A stretch of 42,225 nucleotides of DNA from Balneola sp. (GTDB taxonomy: Bacteria; Bacteroidota; Rhodothermia; Balneolales; Balneolaceae): the NCBI GenBank assembly GCA_002720745.1, contig PBJO01000001.1, positions 48,038 to 90,262 of the forward strand, given 5' to 3'. A model generated the notes under the pieces. That model did no database searches. It saw nothing but the letters and a program-made list of their open reading frames with translations, and was not told where the DNA came from. Position numbers and translations under genes: made by a program. Shown one piece after another: positions 25,967 to 33,748 of this stretch. Every line of letters starts with the position of its first letter. Within the stretch, counting starts at the first letter, position 1.

Positions 25967-27109
25967 TTAACTAGATTTATTCGAACTTGATCGAATCTGA
26001 TCATAGAAACTTTCGTACTGAAGTACTACATGATTTACGTTAAATTGCTCAGCACGCTTCCTTGCATTTTTTGCTAAAGTAGAATGTAAAATTGGAGTGC
26101 TCAAAATTTGAACAGCATAATCTGCCATACAATTCACATCATCCAGAGCGCAAAAATATCCAGTTTCTCCATGAATATTAACTTCCGGTAGACCACCAAT
26201 ATCTGAACTAATTACTGGAACCGAACAGCTCATCGCCTCTAAGGCTGCCAATCCAAAAGTTTCGGAACCTGATGGAATAAGAAATAAATCAGCAATCGAG
26301 AAAATATCTTCTACTCGTTCCCATTTCCCCATAAAGTGGACATGTTCGCAAATACCAAGGCTTCGACATTGCTGCTCTGCTACTTGCCGATCAGGTCCAT
26401 CACCAACCAAAACCAATTTTGCGGAGATACTTTTTTCCAAGGTTTTAGCAAAAATTTGTATTACAACTGGCACTCTTTTAACTTTTCTAAAGTTAGAAAC
26501 ATGCACAATTATTTTTTCACCCTTTGGTGCTAATTCCTCTTTCAGTTCTGTTTGATCAGTTGCTTTGAATCGTTCTAAATCGATAAAATTTGGAATAACT
26601 CTAATCTCTTGTTTAATGTCGAAATTCTCATAAGTTTCTCGCTTTAAATACTCCGAAACGGCCGTCACACCATCACTTTTATCGATGGAGAATTCAACCA
26701 CGTGCTTATAGCTAGGATCTTTTCCAACCAATGTGATATCTGTTCCATGTAATGTAGTTACTATAGGCACATGAAGCCCACGTTCTGTCATAATTTGCCG
26801 GGCTAAGTAGGCGCTTGTGGCATGAGGCAAGGCATAATGCACATGTAACAAATCTAAACGCTCAAATTCAATCAAATTCACCATTTGTGAAGCCAATGCT
26901 AAGGCATAGGGTGGATATTCAAAAAGCGGATATGAATTTATTGACACCTCGTGGTAAAATATATTAGTGTTGTGTTCTTCCAGGCGAGTTGGGCGAGCGT
27001 AACTCAAAATATGCAGGATGTGTCCTTGCTGGGCTAATATTTTAGCCAATTCAGTGGCCACTACTCCACTTCCCCCGAAGGTAGGATAACAAACTATTCC
27101 AATATTCAT
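25967..27109 (-). CDS. bshA: N-acetyl-alpha-D-glucosaminyl L-malate synthase (bacillithiol step 1)
   Basis: A 380-residue GT4 enzyme that joins GlcNAc from UDP-GlcNAc to L-malate, the first step of bacillithiol synthesis. The N-terminus NIGIVCYPTFGGSGVVATEL is diagnostic of BshA, followed by HVHYALPHATSAYLAR (about 94-109) and TLHGTDITLVG (about 122-132). The donor-site E-x7-E lies in SGSETFGLAALEAMSCSVPVI (around 271-291). Bacillithiol is the low-molecular-weight thiol of Bacillota, Deinococcota and many Bacteroidota, so this organism probably uses it in place of glutathione. bshB and bshC are not in the window. The gene converges on sucC with a 47-bp gap. Confidence 0.94.
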   Translation of the reverse strand: MNIGIVCYPTFGGSGVVATELAKILAQQGHILHILSYARPTRLEEHNTNIFYHEVSINSYPLFEYPPYALALASQMVNLIEFERLDLLHVHYALPHATSAYLARQIMTERGLHVPIVTTLHGTDITLVGKDPSYKHVVEFSIDKSDGVTAVSEYLKRETYENFDIKQEIRVIPNFIDLERFKATDQTELKEELAPKGEKIIVHVSNFRKVKRVPVVIQIFAKTLEKSISAKLVLVGDGPDRQVAEQQCRSLGICEHVHFMGKWERVEDIFSIADLFLIPSGSETFGLAALEAMSCSVPVISSDIGGLPEVNIHGETGYFCALDDVNCMADYAVQILSTPILHSTLAKNARKRAEQFNVNHVVLQYESFYDQIRSSSNKSS

Positions 27110-27355: not shown

Positions 27356-28111
27356 ATGGCAGGACATTCTAGATGGGCGAATATTCGTCATAAAAAAGCT
27401 AAAGAAGATGCAAAACGCTCTAAGGTCTTTACAAAGATCATAAAGGAGCTTACTGTTGCGGCTAGAGAAGGGGGAGGTGATCCAACTGGAAATCCAAGAC
27501 TTGCTTTGGCTGTAGAAAATGCCAAAAGTTGTAACCTTCCCAAAGACAATATGGAGCGAGCCATTAAGCGTGGCACTGATAAGTTAAATGACGGTTCTAG
27601 CCTTGAAGAAGTTAGTTTTGAAGGATACGGTCCTGGGGGTATAGCCTATTACATTGAGGCAACCACTGATAACAATAATAGGACAGTGAGTGAGCTTCGG
27701 CATATTTTTACCAAATATGGTGGTAATATGGGTATCAATGGTTCTGTTTCATTTTTATTTGAGCAAAAAGGAATGATTAGTTTGCCAGCTGAAGGAGTAG
27801 ATGAAGAAAATTTTCTCTTAGAGGCAATTGAAGCGGGTGCTGATGATGTTATTATAGAAAGAAGTGCCACGCTTTTTATTGTTATGACGGAACGGACAAA
27901 ACTCTTTAGTGTGCGAAACAAATTAGAAGCTGCCGGATATACTATTGAACAAGCAGAACTCGTTAGAGAAGCTACTATGGAAACAAAAGTAGACGCTGAA
28001 ATGGCACGCGCTAACTTTAATATGATTGAAACATTTGAAGAAAACAATGATGTGACTAATGTGTTTACAAATCTACTAATGGATGAGGAAACCATGAATG
28101 CAGTTGATTAG
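27356..28111 (+). CDS. yebC: YebC/PmpR (TACO1) family protein
   Basis: A 251-residue YebC-family protein. MAGHSRWANIRHKKAKEDAKRSKVFTKII is the invariant opening, followed by GGGDPTGNPRLALAVENAKSCNLPKDNMERAIKRG and the middle-domain segment YGPGGIAYYIEATTDNNNRT. Bacterial members have been described as transcription regulators and, more recently, as ribosome-associated factors that ease translation of difficult sequences such as polyproline. Which role applies here is not visible. It is 38 bp upstream of the first BatC-like gene on the same strand and may share its transcript. Confidence 0.95.
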   Translation: MAGHSRWANIRHKKAKEDAKRSKVFTKIIKELTVAAREGGGDPTGNPRLALAVENAKSCNLPKDNMERAIKRGTDKLNDGSSLEEVSFEGYGPGGIAYYIEATTDNNNRTVSELRHIFTKYGGNMGINGSVSFLFEQKGMISLPAEGVDEENFLLEAIEAGADDVIIERSATLFIVMTERTKLFSVRNKLEAAGYTIEQAELVREATMETKVDAEMARANFNMIETFEENNDVTNVFTNLLMDEETMNAVD

Positions 28112-28149: not shown

Positions 28150-28800
28150 ATGACGACATTTATTTGGGTTATACTACTTTTTTTAGGATTAAATTTTATT
28201 AATCCAGATGCTCGTAAAGCTAATAAATCTTATGAAAATGGAGACTATGAGAGTGCAAAAACTTGGTTTTATTCTGCCTTAGATCAAGACCCCAAAAATG
28301 CTGAAATTTTATTCAACTTAGGTAATACATTAACTAAATTAGGTGAAATTGAGGAAGCCATAAAGGTATTCATGCAGGCAAAAAGCTACACGGATGACGC
28401 CCTCCTAAAAGCTTTGGCAGACTACAACATCGGAACTGTTTTGGCTGAAAATGAGCAATGGAAGCCGGCAATGAAACACTTGCGAGCTTCTTTACAAAAA
28501 CTTCCATTGGATAGCGAGGGCCAGTTCAATTATGAATATGCTTTGATGAAAGCTTCTGAAGAAGAAGACAATGATGAGAAAAATCAAGATCAAAATGAAA
28601 ACCAGGAACCTCCACCTGAACCAAGTGTTTATGCTAAAGCGATAAAAGAACAAGCCGACGCCCTCGTCAATGAATCACTATATACTACCGCTTTTAATCT
28701 TATGCAAAAGGCTTTAGAAGTAGATGAAACGGTTAGATATTATGATTCGTATATTAGTCGTATTAGTGCAGTTAACCAGATAGAACAAACTGAAAATTAA
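28150..28800 (+). CDS. BatC-like TPR protein
   Basis: A 216-residue protein with an N-terminal hydrophobic signal or anchor (about 3-18, TFIWVILLFLGLNF). Tetratricopeptide repeats follow at about 24-57 (YENGDYESAKTWFYSALDQD), 58-91 and 99-130 (NIGTVLAENEQWKPAMKHL). A polar linker of Asp/Glu/Asn/Gln with a proline run spans about 135-155. A fourth TPR-like segment lies near 170-200. This is the BatC pattern: a periplasmic or membrane-tethered TPR protein of the Bat (Bacteroides aerotolerance) operon. It begins a group of four genes with batD and batE but lacks the usual batA and batB upstream. The exact role of Bat proteins is not established. Confidence 0.8.
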   Translation: MTTFIWVILLFLGLNFINPDARKANKSYENGDYESAKTWFYSALDQDPKNAEILFNLGNTLTKLGEIEEAIKVFMQAKSYTDDALLKALADYNIGTVLAENEQWKPAMKHLRASLQKLPLDSEGQFNYEYALMKASEEEDNDEKNQDQNENQEPPPEPSVYAKAIKEQADALVNESLYTTAFNLMQKALEVDETVRYYDSYISRISAVNQIEQTEN

Positions 28801-28847
28801 GCTAGTTTGTTATTATTAGACCACATACACCTATATCCAAGATTGCT

Positions 28848-29483
28848 ATGCTTAATCCCTCTTTTTTGCTCACATTCTATTTCAATAACACACGAAGAAG
28901 GTCCATTTATGCTGTTTACTCCTTCGTGTTAATTTTAATGGTTTGGTTCATGCCTCAATCTCTTTTTGGACAAACTCAAGCTATCACCCCACCTGCAGAA
29001 AGTTACTTTCATCAAGGTGCACAACAATTCATCTACAACAACATCAAGGCTGCCATTAGTGCTGTGGAGACTGGATTAGAACGTTATCCGGATGATCCGA
29101 AGCTCCAAAGTCTATATGATCAGTTGAAAGAACAGCGAGAGCAGGATAGCCAGAATGAACAAGATAATAGAGATCAAAGCGGAGAAAAATCTGAAGAGAA
29201 AACCGAACAACAAGAAAACGAAGAAAATTCAGAACAAAACGAGCAAAATTTAGAAAATGAAGAACAAGAGTCAGAAAATGATAATCAAAGTCAAAACCAA
29301 GACAATGAAGTCCCAGAAGAGTCCGAATCAAGTGAGCGTCCTTTAGAAGAAGAACTAAAAGATTTAAGCAAAGAAGAGGCGCAAAAAATCCTACAGGCAT
29401 TAGCTCAAAAAGAAAAAGAATTATTAAAGGAATTCAAAAAAGCTAAAACTAAAGGCGGAAAAACACATGAAAAAGATTGGTAA
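28848..29483 (+). CDS. Second BatC-like protein with long Glu/Gln/Asn-rich tail
   Basis: A 211-residue protein. A hydrophobic signal or anchor segment at about 20-41 ends in SLFGQTQ, a plausible cleavage site. Residues about 50-90 form one TPR-like unit (YFHQGAQQFIYNNIKAAISA then LERYPDDPKLQSLYDQLKEQ). Residues about 91-165 are almost only Glu, Gln, Asn, Ser and Asp, and the end is rich in Lys and Glu (KEEAQKILQALAQKEKELLKEF). That last segment resembles the C-terminal helix found in BatC proteins and in BatB-BatC fusions. Its stop overlaps the batD start by 17 bp, so translation of the two is probably coupled. It looks like a second, divergent copy of the upstream batC gene. Confidence 0.75.
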   Translation: MLNPSFLLTFYFNNTRRRSIYAVYSFVLILMVWFMPQSLFGQTQAITPPAESYFHQGAQQFIYNNIKAAISAVETGLERYPDDPKLQSLYDQLKEQREQDSQNEQDNRDQSGEKSEEKTEQQENEENSEQNEQNLENEEQESENDNQSQNQDNEVPEESESSERPLEEELKDLSKEEAQKILQALAQKEKELLKEFKKAKTKGGKTHEKDW

Positions 29484-31263
29484 ATTTATATTGTATCTAC
29501 TTCTCTTTTTTCTTGCGAGTATTCCCATCTTTACTTGGGCTCAAACCCCCCCTATTCAGGTACAGGCCAAACTGTCTGAAACCAATATATACAATGGTGA
29601 AGCGGTACTCCTAGAATTCATTATCTCAGGTAGAAGTTTAAACAGCATTGATCGCCCAACTGTACTTGATGTGCCTGGACTCAGGTGGATAAGCGGTTCA
29701 AATAGACAAGGGCAGAGTATTCAGTATGTAAATGGCCGCCCAAGTGTTACCTATACCTATGGGTATCAATTTGTTGCAACTCAAGTTGGCAACTATTCCC
29801 TTCCTTCCTTTGATATTACCGTTAACGGAGAGATTTACCGAACTGAACCTATTGCATTTCGGGTATTGGATCTAGCGAATTCACAACAAAATAATCGGGC
29901 TAATCCTGATATTTTTGTTCGGTTAGAGCCCGACAAAATCAGTGCCTTCTTGGGTGAACAAATTGTTGTAGATGTCGTATTGTATTTCAAAAATACCATT
30001 GAAGTTCGGTCATACCAAGCAAGTCCAGGCTGGAAAGCAGAAGGGTTTTGGAAAGAAGAACTTGAAAATACCCAGCAGACTCGTGCTACATCTACCTTAA
30101 TTGAGGGAGAGCGATATCAAAGAGCTAGACTTCTGCAGTACGCACTCTTCCCAAGTAAACGAGGCAAACTAGTCCTAAGTCCATTTGAGATTACTGTCTT
30201 AATTCAACAGCGTAATAGACGTCAAGATATTTTTAGTTTCGGCTTGGGTCAGGAGCGCAAAAATATTCAAACACCCCCAACCGAAATAACCATTAACCCT
30301 CTCCCCGCCTTTCAGAGTACAGAAAACAACTTCTTCCTCTCAGCCATTGGAACATTCCAGATGGAGCGCAGTATCAAACCCACTGAAGCCCTAGTTGGAG
30401 AAAGTATTGAAATTACTACTCTCATATCGGGAACGGGGAATCTCCCTTTAATTCAATCTCCTGACTATGTGTACCCAGCTGAATTTGAACAGTACAATCC
30501 ACAAGAAAGCAGTTCCATCCAACGAGCCGGTTCAATAATTTCCGGAACAAAAACCTTTACTGATATAGTAATTGCGCGTAATGAAGGAAACTATACAATT
30601 CCACCTACTCAGCTTATATACTTTGACCCAATCGCCGAAGAGTATAAAGCAATTAGTCTTCCAGCTCAGAGCCTACGTGTTATTCGAGACGCTAACGCTA
30701 TACGTTCAACCACTGAAATGCTACGATTCGAAATTAAACCTATGGCTGGATTGGTGGCCTGGAAGCAATACTCAAGGAATGGGATAGCTGAACAGCCCCT
30801 TTTACTACTTTTCTTACTTCTACCCTTAGCTGGCCTAGTCATGGGATTCTTTGTTAAAAAACATCAGGATCGCCTACAAAATGATCATAATTTTGCACGA
30901 AAACGGGGTGCACTAAAGACAGCAAAAAGTGCTTTGGATAAGCTTTACACTAAGGCTGAGCGACAAAACAGAGACGACAAGAATACTATAAAAGAATGCT
31001 ATCACGAGCTCTATCATATCATTGGCGCCTACATAACCAATCGTTGTGGAATGCATGCTGCTGGCTGTTCAATCCAGGAATTGCTAGAAGGACTAGAAAA
31101 ACAGTTTAACGCTATGTCACCTGCAGCACTCGAGCGGTGCAAGAATATCCTAACAAAATGTGATACCATATCCTACGCACCTATTAGTTCTACCTCGGAT
31201 GTACTAACAGATATTCATCATGCTAAAGAAACTATTCTAAAACTTGAACAGGCGCTGAAATAA
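29467..31263 (+). CDS. batD: BatD family protein
   Basis: A 598-residue envelope protein of the BatD (oxygen tolerance) family. A signal peptide spans about residues 1-25 (LLLFFLASIPIFTWAQ). Ig-like domains follow, with the typical first one reading VQAKLSETNIYNGEAVLLEFIISG (about 32-55) and a later one MERSIKPTEALVGESIEITTLISGTGNLPLI (about 299-329). One TM helix lies at about 443-461 (LLLLFLLLPLAGLVMGFFV), followed by a cytoplasmic helical tail of about 135 residues. It starts inside the previous gene, with a possible ribosome-binding site AAAGGCGG at 29451-29458, and its TAA shares one base with the batE ATG. Confidence 0.88.
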   Translation: MKKIGKFILYLLLFFLASIPIFTWAQTPPIQVQAKLSETNIYNGEAVLLEFIISGRSLNSIDRPTVLDVPGLRWISGSNRQGQSIQYVNGRPSVTYTYGYQFVATQVGNYSLPSFDITVNGEIYRTEPIAFRVLDLANSQQNNRANPDIFVRLEPDKISAFLGEQIVVDVVLYFKNTIEVRSYQASPGWKAEGFWKEELENTQQTRATSTLIEGERYQRARLLQYALFPSKRGKLVLSPFEITVLIQQRNRRQDIFSFGLGQERKNIQTPPTEITINPLPAFQSTENNFFLSAIGTFQMERSIKPTEALVGESIEITTLISGTGNLPLIQSPDYVYPAEFEQYNPQESSSIQRAGSIISGTKTFTDIVIARNEGNYTIPPTQLIYFDPIAEEYKAISLPAQSLRVIRDANAIRSTTEMLRFEIKPMAGLVAWKQYSRNGIAEQPLLLLFLLLPLAGLVMGFFVKKHQDRLQNDHNFARKRGALKTAKSALDKLYTKAERQNRDDKNTIKECYHELYHIIGAYITNRCGMHAAGCSIQELLEGLEKQFNAMSPAALERCKNILTKCDTISYAPISSTSDVLTDIHHAKETILKLEQALK

Positions 31264-32258
31264 TGCTAAATAACAAATCAATTCTGAAAAGCGAAGTAAC
31301 AGTTACTTTTCTCAAGAGTATCTTGGAGCCTAATAAATCTTGGTATCTGGCATTACTACTTATTTTCTATGTGTTTTCTTCAACATCCGAAGCAAACACG
31401 ACGTCACGAGCAACATCAACGTCGCTCGAGGCAACCATAACATTACAGACTACATCATCACTACTTGAAAAAACGGCTACTCAAGGATTAACACAAAATC
31501 TTAAAGGCTCCATACTCTCAGCATTCCAAGCGCAATCTAGCTTTGAGGAGGCTACCTTTAATTTAGAACAGGCTCAATACAAAATAGCTCTTCAGAAATT
31601 TAAGCTTATTGAACAAAGCGGATTTTATTCAGGAGAATTATTTTTAAATATGGCTATTACTGCGATTGAATTAGATTCCTTAGGCCTGGCAAAATTTTAC
31701 CTCCAAAAAGCTGTAGAAGAACCCAACACTGAGGCCGCAGCAGTTGAAGCACTGGTGTATCTAAAAAGTCAATTCAGCCGTCAAGCCGCTACTTTACCGC
31801 CACTACCATGGGATACAGCTTTAGACTATATCGAACATAACTGGGGAAGTCTATGGTTGTTCTGGGTGGCCTTTTTTTTCTTAAGCCTATCGGTAATTTT
31901 ACAGTTGTTCCACTGGTTTGGAAACGCATCTATCCGCAGCAAGAAATCATCTGCGAAGCAGCATATACCTACGATTATAAAAGGCTCTTGGACCTCCTTA
32001 TTCGTTTTTGTTACCAGTTTAAGTTTGGCCATTGGTATAGATTACCGCTCTGAAAAGTATACCCAAGCCGTTATTATTGCGCAGGAAGTGGAGGTGAGGA
32101 ATTCCCCTTCAACATCAAGTGAATTGCTGGTCATGGGTTATGAAGGATATGACTGCCGGATAGACTTTTCCGTTGACTCTATTCAAGGTTGGCGCTTTAT
32201 TCGACTCAGTAACGGCCAAACAGGGTGGGTACTAGACGAAACTCTACGAATTCATTAG
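31263..32258 (+). CDS. batE: BatE-like protein: TPR region, two membrane helices, SH3-like C-terminus
   Basis: A 331-residue protein. A hydrophobic N-terminal segment (about 27-45) ends near TSSTSEA, and a Thr/Ser-rich stretch follows (about 46-80). Residues about 95-165 form TPR-like helices (AQYKIALQKFKLIEQSGFYSGELFLNMAI). TM helices lie at about 197-217 and 246-262. Residues about 268-329 resemble a bacterial SH3 domain (VEVRNSPSTSSELLVMGYEGYDC, then GWRFIRLSNGQTGWV). This TPR-TM-SH3 order is that of BatE in Bacteroidota. It is translationally linked to batD (TAATG overlap) and ends the four-gene group. Confidence 0.82.
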   Translation: MLNNKSILKSEVTVTFLKSILEPNKSWYLALLLIFYVFSSTSEANTTSRATSTSLEATITLQTTSSLLEKTATQGLTQNLKGSILSAFQAQSSFEEATFNLEQAQYKIALQKFKLIEQSGFYSGELFLNMAITAIELDSLGLAKFYLQKAVEEPNTEAAAVEALVYLKSQFSRQAATLPPLPWDTALDYIEHNWGSLWLFWVAFFFLSLSVILQLFHWFGNASIRSKKSSAKQHIPTIIKGSWTSLFVFVTSLSLAIGIDYRSEKYTQAVIIAQEVEVRNSPSTSSELLVMGYEGYDCRIDFSVDSIQGWRFIRLSNGQTGWVLDETLRIH

Positions 32259-32374: not shown

Positions 32375-33748
32375 ATGACGACTAACGAATTTATTGAGCA
32401 GCATAAAGAGCACTTCTTAGATGAACTATTCACCTTTCTAAGGATACCGAGTGTGAGTACCGATTCGTCCCAAAAAATGGGGGTAGAAGAGGCAGCAGAT
32501 TTTTTGCTTAACCAGCTTAATTTGTTAAAGCTTTCACATGTAGAACGCTATGAAACCCAAGGGCACCCCATCGTATACGGGGAACATTGTCCTTTTGATG
32601 ACCGGCCCACAGTTTTAATTTATGGCCACTATGATGTTCAGCCTTCGGATCCAGAACACTTATGGGATACCCCACCCTTTGAACCCACCATTAAGGAAGG
32701 TAAGATTTATGCCAGAGGCGCTAGTGATGACAAAGGACAATGTTTTACTCATGTAAAAGCTCTTCAATCTTTAATCGAAGCAGACGGTGGTATTCCGGTG
32801 AATATCAAGGTTCTGTTGGAAGGAGAAGAGGAAATTGGATCACCCAATTTGGTCCCTTTTATTGAATCTCATAAGGACATGCTACACTGTGATATGGTAC
32901 TTATTTCTGATACCTCCATGTTTGAACTCGATCAACCATCTATTACTTTTGGCCTTCGAGGATTAGCTTATATGGAAGTTGAAGTTATAGGCCCAAATAG
33001 AGATTTACATTCTGGGGTCTATGGAGGAGCGGTGGAAAATCCTTTAAATGTACTTTGTGAAATCATTGCTGAGCTGAAAGACAAAGATGGCGTTGTTCAA
33101 ATTCCCGGATTTTATGACAAGGTGAAAGCCTTAACACAAGAAGACCGACAGGCAATGGCTGATTTACCTTTTGACGAAATAGCATATAAATCTTCCTTAG
33201 ATGTGGATGCTGTTCACGGTGAAAAAGGATACAGTACACTTGAACGGGCTTCTGCTAGACCTACGCTCGATGTCAATGGTATATGGGGTGGTTATCAAGG
33301 AGAAGGGGCCAAAACAGTACTCCCCTCAAAAGCTTATGCCAAAATTAGTATGCGCCTGGTCCCCAACCAAGATCCTCATGAAATTGCCTGTTTATTTGAA
33401 CAACAAGTATTGTCCTTAGCTCCTAAGACAGTAAAAGTAAGGGTAACGGAGCATCATGGTGGATATGCCTCACGCACTGACTTGAATTTTTACGGTTTAA
33501 AAGCAGCGGCCACAGCGTATGAGGAGGTCTACAAGACCCCGGTTCTTTTTTCCATGGAAGGCGGATCTATTCCCATTGTTGCCGATTTTAAACGGGTGTT
33601 AGGAGCTGAGTCCATACTTATGGGATTTGGCGTAACCAGTGACGCTATTCATTCGCCCAATGAATCGTTCCACGTAAAAGATTTTTACAGGGGGATCAAA
33701 ACTTCTACTCGGTTTTTCCAATTGTTAGCAGAAGATGCTAAGTCTTAA
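32375..33748 (+). CDS. M20-family dipeptidase/metallopeptidase
   Basis: A 457-residue cytosolic zinc peptidase (no signal peptide), probably acting on dipeptides or other short peptides. Metal and catalytic motifs are clear: IYGHYDVQP gives H85 and D87; YARGASDDKGQ holds metal-bridging D119; LLEGEEEIGSPNL (147-159) holds the catalytic base and metal-binding Glu. LHSGVYGGAVENP (from about 201) belongs to the dimerisation domain start, and a late HSPNESFHV segment supplies the last His ligand. Length and motifs fit the carnosinase/DapE-like M20 dipeptidases. It is 68 bp upstream of a secreted amidohydrolase, with a weak hairpin between. Confidence 0.93.
   Translation: MTTNEFIEQHKEHFLDELFTFLRIPSVSTDSSQKMGVEEAADFLLNQLNLLKLSHVERYETQGHPIVYGEHCPFDDRPTVLIYGHYDVQPSDPEHLWDTPPFEPTIKEGKIYARGASDDKGQCFTHVKALQSLIEADGGIPVNIKVLLEGEEEIGSPNLVPFIESHKDMLHCDMVLISDTSMFELDQPSITFGLRGLAYMEVEVIGPNRDLHSGVYGGAVENPLNVLCEIIAELKDKDGVVQIPGFYDKVKALTQEDRQAMADLPFDEIAYKSSLDVDAVHGEKGYSTLERASARPTLDVNGIWGGYQGEGAKTVLPSKAYAKISMRLVPNQDPHEIACLFEQQVLSLAPKTVKVRVTEHHGGYASRTDLNFYGLKAAATAYEEVYKTPVLFSMEGGSIPIVADFKRVLGAESILMGFGVTSDAIHSPNESFHVKDFYRGIKTSTRFFQLLAEDAKS

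Follow-up and report, generated by a model that had tools for sequence, protein, structure and literature searches.

The window analyzed here, a stretch of 42,225 nucleotides from the marine bacterium Balneola sp. (Bacteroidota; Rhodothermia; Balneolales; Balneolaceae), corresponds to C4:48038-90262 in a genome of 2.17 Mb (25 contigs, 98.63% complete) and encompasses a compact set of genes of the MoxR-Bat system, a familiar stress-response cluster of the membrane, namely, two genes that each encode a part of the protein BatC, followed by batD and batE (loci, genomes, contigs and families are designated by the handles L, G, C and f, respectively). The features at this locus and its neighbors are:

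28150..28800 (+), BatC1, the N-terminal part of BatC, a tetratricopeptide repeat (TPR) protein matched by the profile of the single BatC
28621..28797 (+), the extra C-terminal TPR module of BatC1 (PSxYAK...), the marker of the divided form
28848..29483 (+), BatC2, the C-terminal part of BatC, matched by the profile of the single BatC, with a KDW end
29467..31263 (+), BatD, Pfam PF13584 at 8.2e-32, aligned with 16 relatives
31263..32258 (+), BatE, assigned only from homology and gene position, without a Pfam match
27356..28111 (+), yebC/TACO1 (PF01709/PF20772), a kept upstream neighbor outside the Bat machine
25967..27109 (-), glycosyltransferase group 1 (PF00534), the divergent upstream neighbor, present in 18 of the 20 annotated relative loci
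32375..33748 (+), a peptidase presumably of the M20 type, the downstream neighbor, present in 17 of these 20 loci

The preliminary description of this DNA had noted the tight packing of two BatC-like genes, batD and batE, with overlaps of 17 and 1 bp, behind yebC, and the coordinates bear this out: BatC2 and batD overlap by 17 nucleotides (nt), batD and batE by 1 nt, and the gaps are 38 nt between yebC and BatC1 and 47 nt between BatC1 and BatC2. The family searches agree also with its statement that the window holds no vWA or MoxR gene, and the whole contig C4 lacks any PF07584, PF07726, PF01882 or PF13519 match in the search of the genome to which it belongs. The gene order is not a matter of chance because it recurs in relatives, and an artefact of a contig end is ruled out, given that the window lies 48–90 kb into a 201-kb contig and the relatives share the order. 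In the family profile searches of the window proteins, BatC2 and BatE had no match above the cut-off; their identities rest on homology and position in relatives, and a BatE profile built from the relatives picks the gene after batD in canonical clusters. The BatE family is, we assume, one of TPR/SH3 proteins. A promoter scan of the window was uninformative (14 found versus 14.7 expected), and no solved BatD structure was found.

One of the options raised in the preliminary description was that the module had been split, with batA and batB elsewhere, and the search of the full genome proposed there located moxR, DUF58, batA and batB orthologues, all present, at three other places. Matches to the BatA N-terminal family (PF07584) lie on C10 and C7, MoxR family matches above the cut-off on C24 and C10, DUF58 matches above the cut-off on C10 and C6, and vWA matches on C10, C5 and C6 above the cut-off and on C7 below it. 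The locus on C10 consists of DUF58, an M23-type peptidase on the opposite strand, a protein at the position of DUF4381 (with no Pfam match), BatA and mfd, whereas BatB stands on C5 without an adjoining bat gene and MoxR stands alone on C24; the gene names at these three loci are in part presumed. When proteins from 29 loci selected for holding the cluster were used as queries, the DUF58 and BatA proteins of C10 and the BatB of C5 were each the best match in this genome of all 29 respective cluster proteins, and the C24 MoxR (PF07726 at 1.1e-65) was that of all 19 cluster MoxR proteins, with 399–461 bits compared with 250–286 for its paralogue. BatA carries both PF07584 and vWA, BatB carries vWA with no PF07584 match, the DxSxS motifs are intact in both, and the BatB vWA domain has solved relatives, 3ibs (BatB) and 4jdu. 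The genome has a single BatD, matched as three stretches within one frame. At least 50 kb separates the window operon, BatA and BatB from the ends of their respective contigs. The MoxR-Bat genes of this genome occupy four places, the window included, and do not form one contiguous operon. Loss of the vWA proteins is ruled out, with BatA and BatB orthologues at other loci of the same genome.

The split extends well beyond this genome. In a BatD-based scan, from which the best 80 of 153 confirmed loci were kept, the records are labelled Balneola, Gracilimonas, Fodinibius, Aliifodinibius, Rhodohalobacter, Balneolaceae, Balneolales and others, and 70 loci (L077-L145 and L148, a few of them assigned by place only) make up the Balneolales set. 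Neither BatA nor BatB exceeds 150 bits in any of these 70 loci within the stretch fetched, which is short in some, and yebC lies within 2.5 kb upstream of batD in 58 of the 61 loci that have at least 2.5 kb upstream. The three exceptions (L082, L083 and L084) lack yebC upstream and keep batC-batD-batE; among the 20 annotated loci, yebC is likewise not seen in L061, in L071, which is truncated by its contig, or in L059, which comes from the genome of L082. Outside Rhodothermia, by comparison, MoxR, DUF58, BatA, BatB, BatC and BatD occur together in 19 of the 29 annotated loci. The comparison of gene order around yebC-batC thus reveals a split order kept across Balneolales, and the split, as judged from these counts, is an old rearrangement general in this order, not a separate four-protein machine.

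The components missing from these loci are found elsewhere in the relatives. Among 57 related genomes, BatD was detected in 54, BatA-family and vWA matches in all 57, and MoxR-family matches also in all 57 (55 over the cut-off). Of the 57 relatives, 14 are assembled into no more than about 20 contigs, and in every one of these the matches listed place BatA, BatB and BatD either on separate contigs or no closer than 140 kb to one another; separate contigs are weaker evidence of distance than positions on one contig, as in G042, a single contig with BatD at 4.169 Mb, BatA at 2.238, DUF58 at 2.240, BatB at 2.098 and the best MoxR at 3.484 Mb. Direct distances between BatA and BatB are 1.0 Mb in G011 and 0.47 Mb in G030. 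In the relatives, BatA and BatB were told apart by hand, from the frame length and the PF07584 score, among the matches listed, and G021 has two BatB candidates. According to the preliminary description, a routine rearrangement would be recognized by most relatives carrying the same split order with a normal moxR-batA-batB cluster elsewhere; the relatives do carry this order, but the normal cluster was not found, the remainder being scattered over three places.

Contiguity of the Bat cluster is usual and not universal outside Balneolales. A sample of 198 Bacteroidota genomes, each at least 90% complete, yielded BatD in 166. Among the 29 annotated loci outside Rhodothermia, those without the whole cluster comprise 4 with BatB-BatC-BatD and no BatA and 6 that show less; BatA, BatB, BatC and BatD occur in 7 of the 10 non-Balneolales loci of Rhodothermia, the other 3 of which do not show BatA and BatB. 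The cluster is therefore broken in other lineages too, perhaps in part due to divergent BatD or short contigs. In 20 further non-Balneolales loci of Rhodothermia, picked for the extra BatC1 module, BatA and BatB are present in 18 (not in L235 and L241). Some loci represent the same genome twice: L147/L230, L077/L057, L146/L225 (identical pieces) and L156/L163 (contigs of equal length).

Several further observations concern these dispersed loci. L116, a record labelled Chitinophagaceae, has the Balneolales-type order yebC-batC-batD-batE and groups with Rhodohalobacter in the BatD tree, and is perhaps a mislabelled metagenome-assembled genome. In L111 (5619-6539) and L112 (5481-6467), a DUF58 of low score (72–74 bits) precedes yebC by about 2 kb and is by its score paralogue-like, not the cluster DUF58. 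In the genome analyzed here, a second MoxR-type ATPase on C10 (C10:323621-326864; L014 3622-6865, minus strand) stands beside a protein of 743 amino acids (aa), the start of which looks vWA-like by eye (a DSSES motif) and has no family match there; the locus adjoins genes that by eye resemble PpiC/SurA, and MoxR matches of this score class are present in many relatives. As far as sequence tells, this second MoxR is part of a separate MoxR system, distinct from the Bat one. C7 encodes a 707-aa protein (L012 4402-6525, plus strand) with a PF07584 score above that of BatA and a vWA match below the cut-off; similar long frames exist in most relatives and are easily taken for BatA in family searches. 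The peptidase that we take to be of the M23 type (L011 7661-8950, plus strand) lies on the opposite strand between DUF58 and the gene at the DUF4381 position. Many genomes of the family to which the window belongs have a gap of about 3 kb from DUF58 to the BatA vWA domain, compared with about 1.6 kb in other families and in two genera of this one (G022 and G028); in G018, the gap is 12 kb.

The two BatC genes are best understood by comparison with the single BatC, which in 10 relatives is a protein of 234–263 aa with TPRs, an E/Q-rich stretch and a KDW end. The profile of this protein matches BatC1 of the window over residues 5-152 (E 3.4e-48), and its positions 104-244 match residues 65-211 of BatC2 (whole-protein E 7.9e-22). 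The two proteins hardly recognize each other: a BatC1 profile run on ten BatC2 sequences gives whole-protein E values of 3.9 to 10, with 0.001 for the best single stretch, and a BatC2 profile run on ten BatC1 sequences gives 0.0003 to 1.7. BatC1 consists of a signal or anchor, three TPRs with a cap helix, a short linker and an extra fourth TPR with its cap, with no KDW tail, whereas BatC2 has a signal peptide, one TPR, an E/Q/N-rich linker, a helix and the KDW end. An AlphaFold2 model of BatC1 (predicted local distance difference test, pLDDT, 88.3; predicted template modelling score, pTM, 0.83) has helices between residues 19-145 and 160-215, in which three helix pairs with a cap are followed, after a loose stretch, by a fourth pair with a long cap; in the BatC2 model, the helices in 50-106 are confident, the pLDDT of 134-172 is below 50 and that of the tail helix (175-202) about 60–75. 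The only solved structure found to resemble BatC2 is a TPR protein, at 0.005. A BatC protein is recognized as a TPR protein ending in KDW, and here BatC1 contributes the TPR and BatC2 the KDW; two full-length similar copies, as expected of a tandem duplicate, are not seen. These profile matches and layouts show that the two proteins together contain, by homology, the parts of a single BatC and, in addition, two TPR units. The notion of a ‘doubled’ BatC in the preliminary description thus did not survive as duplication, the copies being hardly alike, and stood insofar as the composition is changed, with one BatC distributed over two genes. A plain two-copy duplication in the present state was rejected because the profiles do not find each other full-length and each protein covers a different part of the single BatC.

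The divided form is present in 24 of the 70 Balneolales loci, and in the BatD tree these form one clade (12 of 12 sampled; Shimodaira–Hasegawa-like approximate likelihood ratio test, SH-aLRT, 100, by a quick method). At E values of at most 1e-5, the extra BatC1 module was found in 71 of 244 Rhodothermia genomes, of which 35 belong to the window's family (8 genera) and 36 to families f44, f47, f48 and f12; this class-wide search detects only the module, and the gene pair itself was read in the annotated loci. Of the 20 loci read from these four families, 19 carry a second gene that has either the BatC2 start or the KDW tail, and 18 carry BatD (L243 shows neither BatC2 nor BatD in its stretch, and the sequence of L246 stops short of BatD). 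The extra module is absent from all 29 Bacteroidota loci outside Rhodothermia. Division of BatC is independent of the split because the divided BatC occurs also beside batA-batB, in Rhodothermales, and the undivided BatC occurs in split Balneolales; this comparison of loci rules out a coupling of BatC division to the dispersal of the cluster. Gene fusions at the BatB-BatC boundary were also encountered: BatB is fused to BatC1 in L236 and L237 (family f48) and to the whole BatC in L169 and L190, outside Rhodothermia.

The distinctive inner pieces of the divided form, that is, the BatC1 end and the BatC2 start, are shared between orders. Among 6289 open reading frames (ORFs), a profile of the BatC1 end from 9 Balneolaceae sequences (of 10; L063 missed the cutting motif) matches, as whole proteins, those of L147 (6.5e-27), L146 (1.7e-21) and L161 (2.3e-16); among the matches listed, the best ORF that lacks the divided form is at 0.0098. 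The BatC1 ends of the Balneolaceae and of the Rhodothermia loci are therefore clearly homologous. The profile of the BatC2 start, from 10 sequences, gives 8e-18 for L146, 4.9e-12 for L161 and 1.2e-4 for L147, with the best ORF without the divided form at 0.011 among the matches listed, and the L147 match to the BatC2 start would be weak if taken alone.

Different parts of the divided BatC have different phylogenetic affinities. In its TPR part, BatC1 of Balneolaceae clusters with the single BatC proteins of Balneolales (support 91, which is not starred), and its union with f44 is rejected by the approximately unbiased test (p-AU 1.2e-5), whereas the inner pieces (107 columns) place Balneolaceae with f44 (97/94), also when the long-branched genus of the window is removed (97/96). 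Mean identities between Balneolaceae and f44 are 27% in BatD, 25% in the TPR part, 48% in the BatC1 end and 39% in the BatC2 start; the corresponding values are 37, 34, 45 and 36% between f44 and f12, and 24, 27, 40 and 36% between Balneolaceae and f12. For these analyses, 75 of 140 rows were hand-picked for the BatD tree, after omission of repeats and of BatD shorter than 450 aa, and 63 rows were hand-picked for the TPR tree; L125, L180, L189 and L195, which have no visible BatC and would default to single, were left out of the trees, L246 was left out of the inner-piece tree, and the tree without the window genus left out also L243, which lacks a BatC2 start. On these trees, the TPR part of the Balneola/Gracilimonas clade is inherited vertically.

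Taken together, the comparisons suggest that batC-batD-batE of the window probably belong to an ordinary, complete MoxR-Bat system that was dispersed early in Balneolales and acts in trans, with BatC made as two exported proteins. In this system, MoxR, a cytoplasmic AAA+ ATPase, would act with the vWA proteins BatA and BatB, the vWA domains of which are placed in the periplasm because of the loop charges. BatC, BatD and BatE would form the periplasmic side, with BatC and BatD linking BatA and BatB. The TPR domain of BatC is likely to serve as a scaffold and the KDW tail, on its long tether, as the contact-making end, the partner of which might be the metal ion-dependent adhesion site (MIDAS) of BatA or BatB. 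Where BatC is divided, the additional repeat of BatC1 could dock with the TPR of BatC2 and so re-join scaffold and tail. The division most likely originated by recombination in the low-complexity linker of a single-gene BatC, the incoming piece, which probably came from a Rhodothermales relative, running from the last part of one gene into the first part of the following one; transfer of the inner BatC segment appears more likely than repeated fusion, by judgement about twice as likely.

The strongest competing history is that the divided BatC is ancestral in Rhodothermia and that deletions from one low-complexity linker to the other turned it back into a single BatC on several occasions, which would be possible, if less probable than the transfer. 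It is consistent with the presence of the divided form in Rhodothermales f47/f48, which are the deepest there, f12 and f44, with the BatC1 TPR part following its own lineage, and with the single form that a linker-to-linker deletion would yield; between the two BatC linkers of the window, only imperfect DNA repeats of 14–23 nt were found. Under an ancestral division, however, several parallel fusions are needed because the sampled earlier-branching Balneolales are all single (in a quick tree with some long branches), and both the position of the Balneolaceae inner piece with f44 and its 48% identity at the BatC1 end, compared with 25% in the TPR part, run counter to descent. An origin of BatC1 and BatC2 in one ancestral tandem duplication followed by complementary domain loss is unlikely. 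Both proteins start with a hydrophobic export signal and hold a TPR, that of BatC2 aligns to the third TPR of the single BatC, and the weak stretches of similarity between them (0.001) would fit such an origin, but there is no significant full-length similarity, nothing in the single BatC examined corresponds to the extra TPR of BatC1, and no intermediate with two full-length BatC copies was seen among the annotated loci. Very unlikely is the other option in the preliminary description, namely, that BatC1, BatC2, BatD and BatE make up a membrane assembly of their own and function independently of vWA proteins. The close packing of the genes and the 0 of 70 Balneolales loci with BatA or BatB in the stretch fetched are what this option predicts; it gained no support from a genome that keeps an orthologue of each canonical partner, BatA and BatB included, from relatives that all have BatA and MoxR family matches, or from the divided BatC that follows batA-batB in Rhodothermales, with BatC1 even fused to BatB in L236 and L237.

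Certain results weigh against the dispersed system with a transferred BatC segment. The topology of descent for the inner piece is disfavored and not rejected (p-AU 0.06, or 0.155 without the window genus), and the BatC1 end evolves slowly in all comparisons, with 40% identity even between Balneolaceae and f12; both points speak for the ancestral division. The KDW tail of Balneolaceae is, by identity only, slightly closer to the Balneolales singles (51%) than to f44 (45%). The BatC2 model is weak overall (pTM 0.37), and the docking of BatC1 with BatC2 and the contact of KDW with MIDAS are guesses. Finally, the role in aerotolerance is disputed: according to PMC3557215, a batABD mutant of Leptospira biflexa has no oxidative phenotype. 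A bolder and rather improbable extension of the dispersed system with a transferred segment would be that BatC is a two-module adaptor with halves that can be independently encoded, exchanged and re-joined; transfer of a segment between orders, through recombination in the low-complexity linkers, would have changed one periplasmic adaptor into an obligate two-protein adaptor in which KDW is the ligand of the BatA/BatB MIDAS.

The locus is, for the most part, an old rearrangement of a known system, and the ‘doubled’ BatC is its more interesting part, being a partition rather than a duplication. There is no settled function for the Bat proteins, and diverse bacteria retain this natural division of BatC, which identifies the TPR scaffold and the tethered KDW tail as its separable pieces. 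The two forms of BatC can be compared in culturable genera, Balneola and Gracilimonas versus Fodinibius and Rhodohalobacter. Given the dispersal in Balneolales, a Bat operon missing from an annotation must not be taken as a missing system.

According to PMC3557215, a transposon insertion led to the discovery of the bat operon in B. fragilis, and its products were proposed to form a complex in the periplasm. In two other reports, moxR influences bat transcription and stress survival in Riemerella anatipestifer (PMC11834572), and Parapedobacter indicus has an eight-gene operon (PMC7500135). In the literature searched, in which subscription journals are thinly covered and most papers were seen as listings, no account of a dispersed bat cluster or a divided BatC was found; likewise, under the same thin coverage of subscription journals, nothing was found on aerotolerance of Balneolaceae or BatD of Balneolales.

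Among the described protein families, NCBIfam NF047507 (TPR_BatC_Lepto) matches BatC1 over residues 23-169 at 2.5e-13, below its cut-off (50 bits versus 175). According to PMC3557215, batB and batC of Leptospira biflexa are fused; the likeness to the genomes compared here lies in a fluid BatC boundary (cf. the BatB-BatC fusions of L169 and L190 and the BatB-BatC1 fusions of L236 and L237), and the difference in that BatC is fused to BatB inside the cluster there, whereas in the window it is divided and away from BatB. Compared with the Bat (Bacteroides aerotolerance) operon, MoxR-DUF58-BatA-BatB-BatC-BatD-BatE, the MoxR of which is of the MRP type, all components are present here as orthologues, but the genes reside at four places in the genome and BatC is encoded in two genes.

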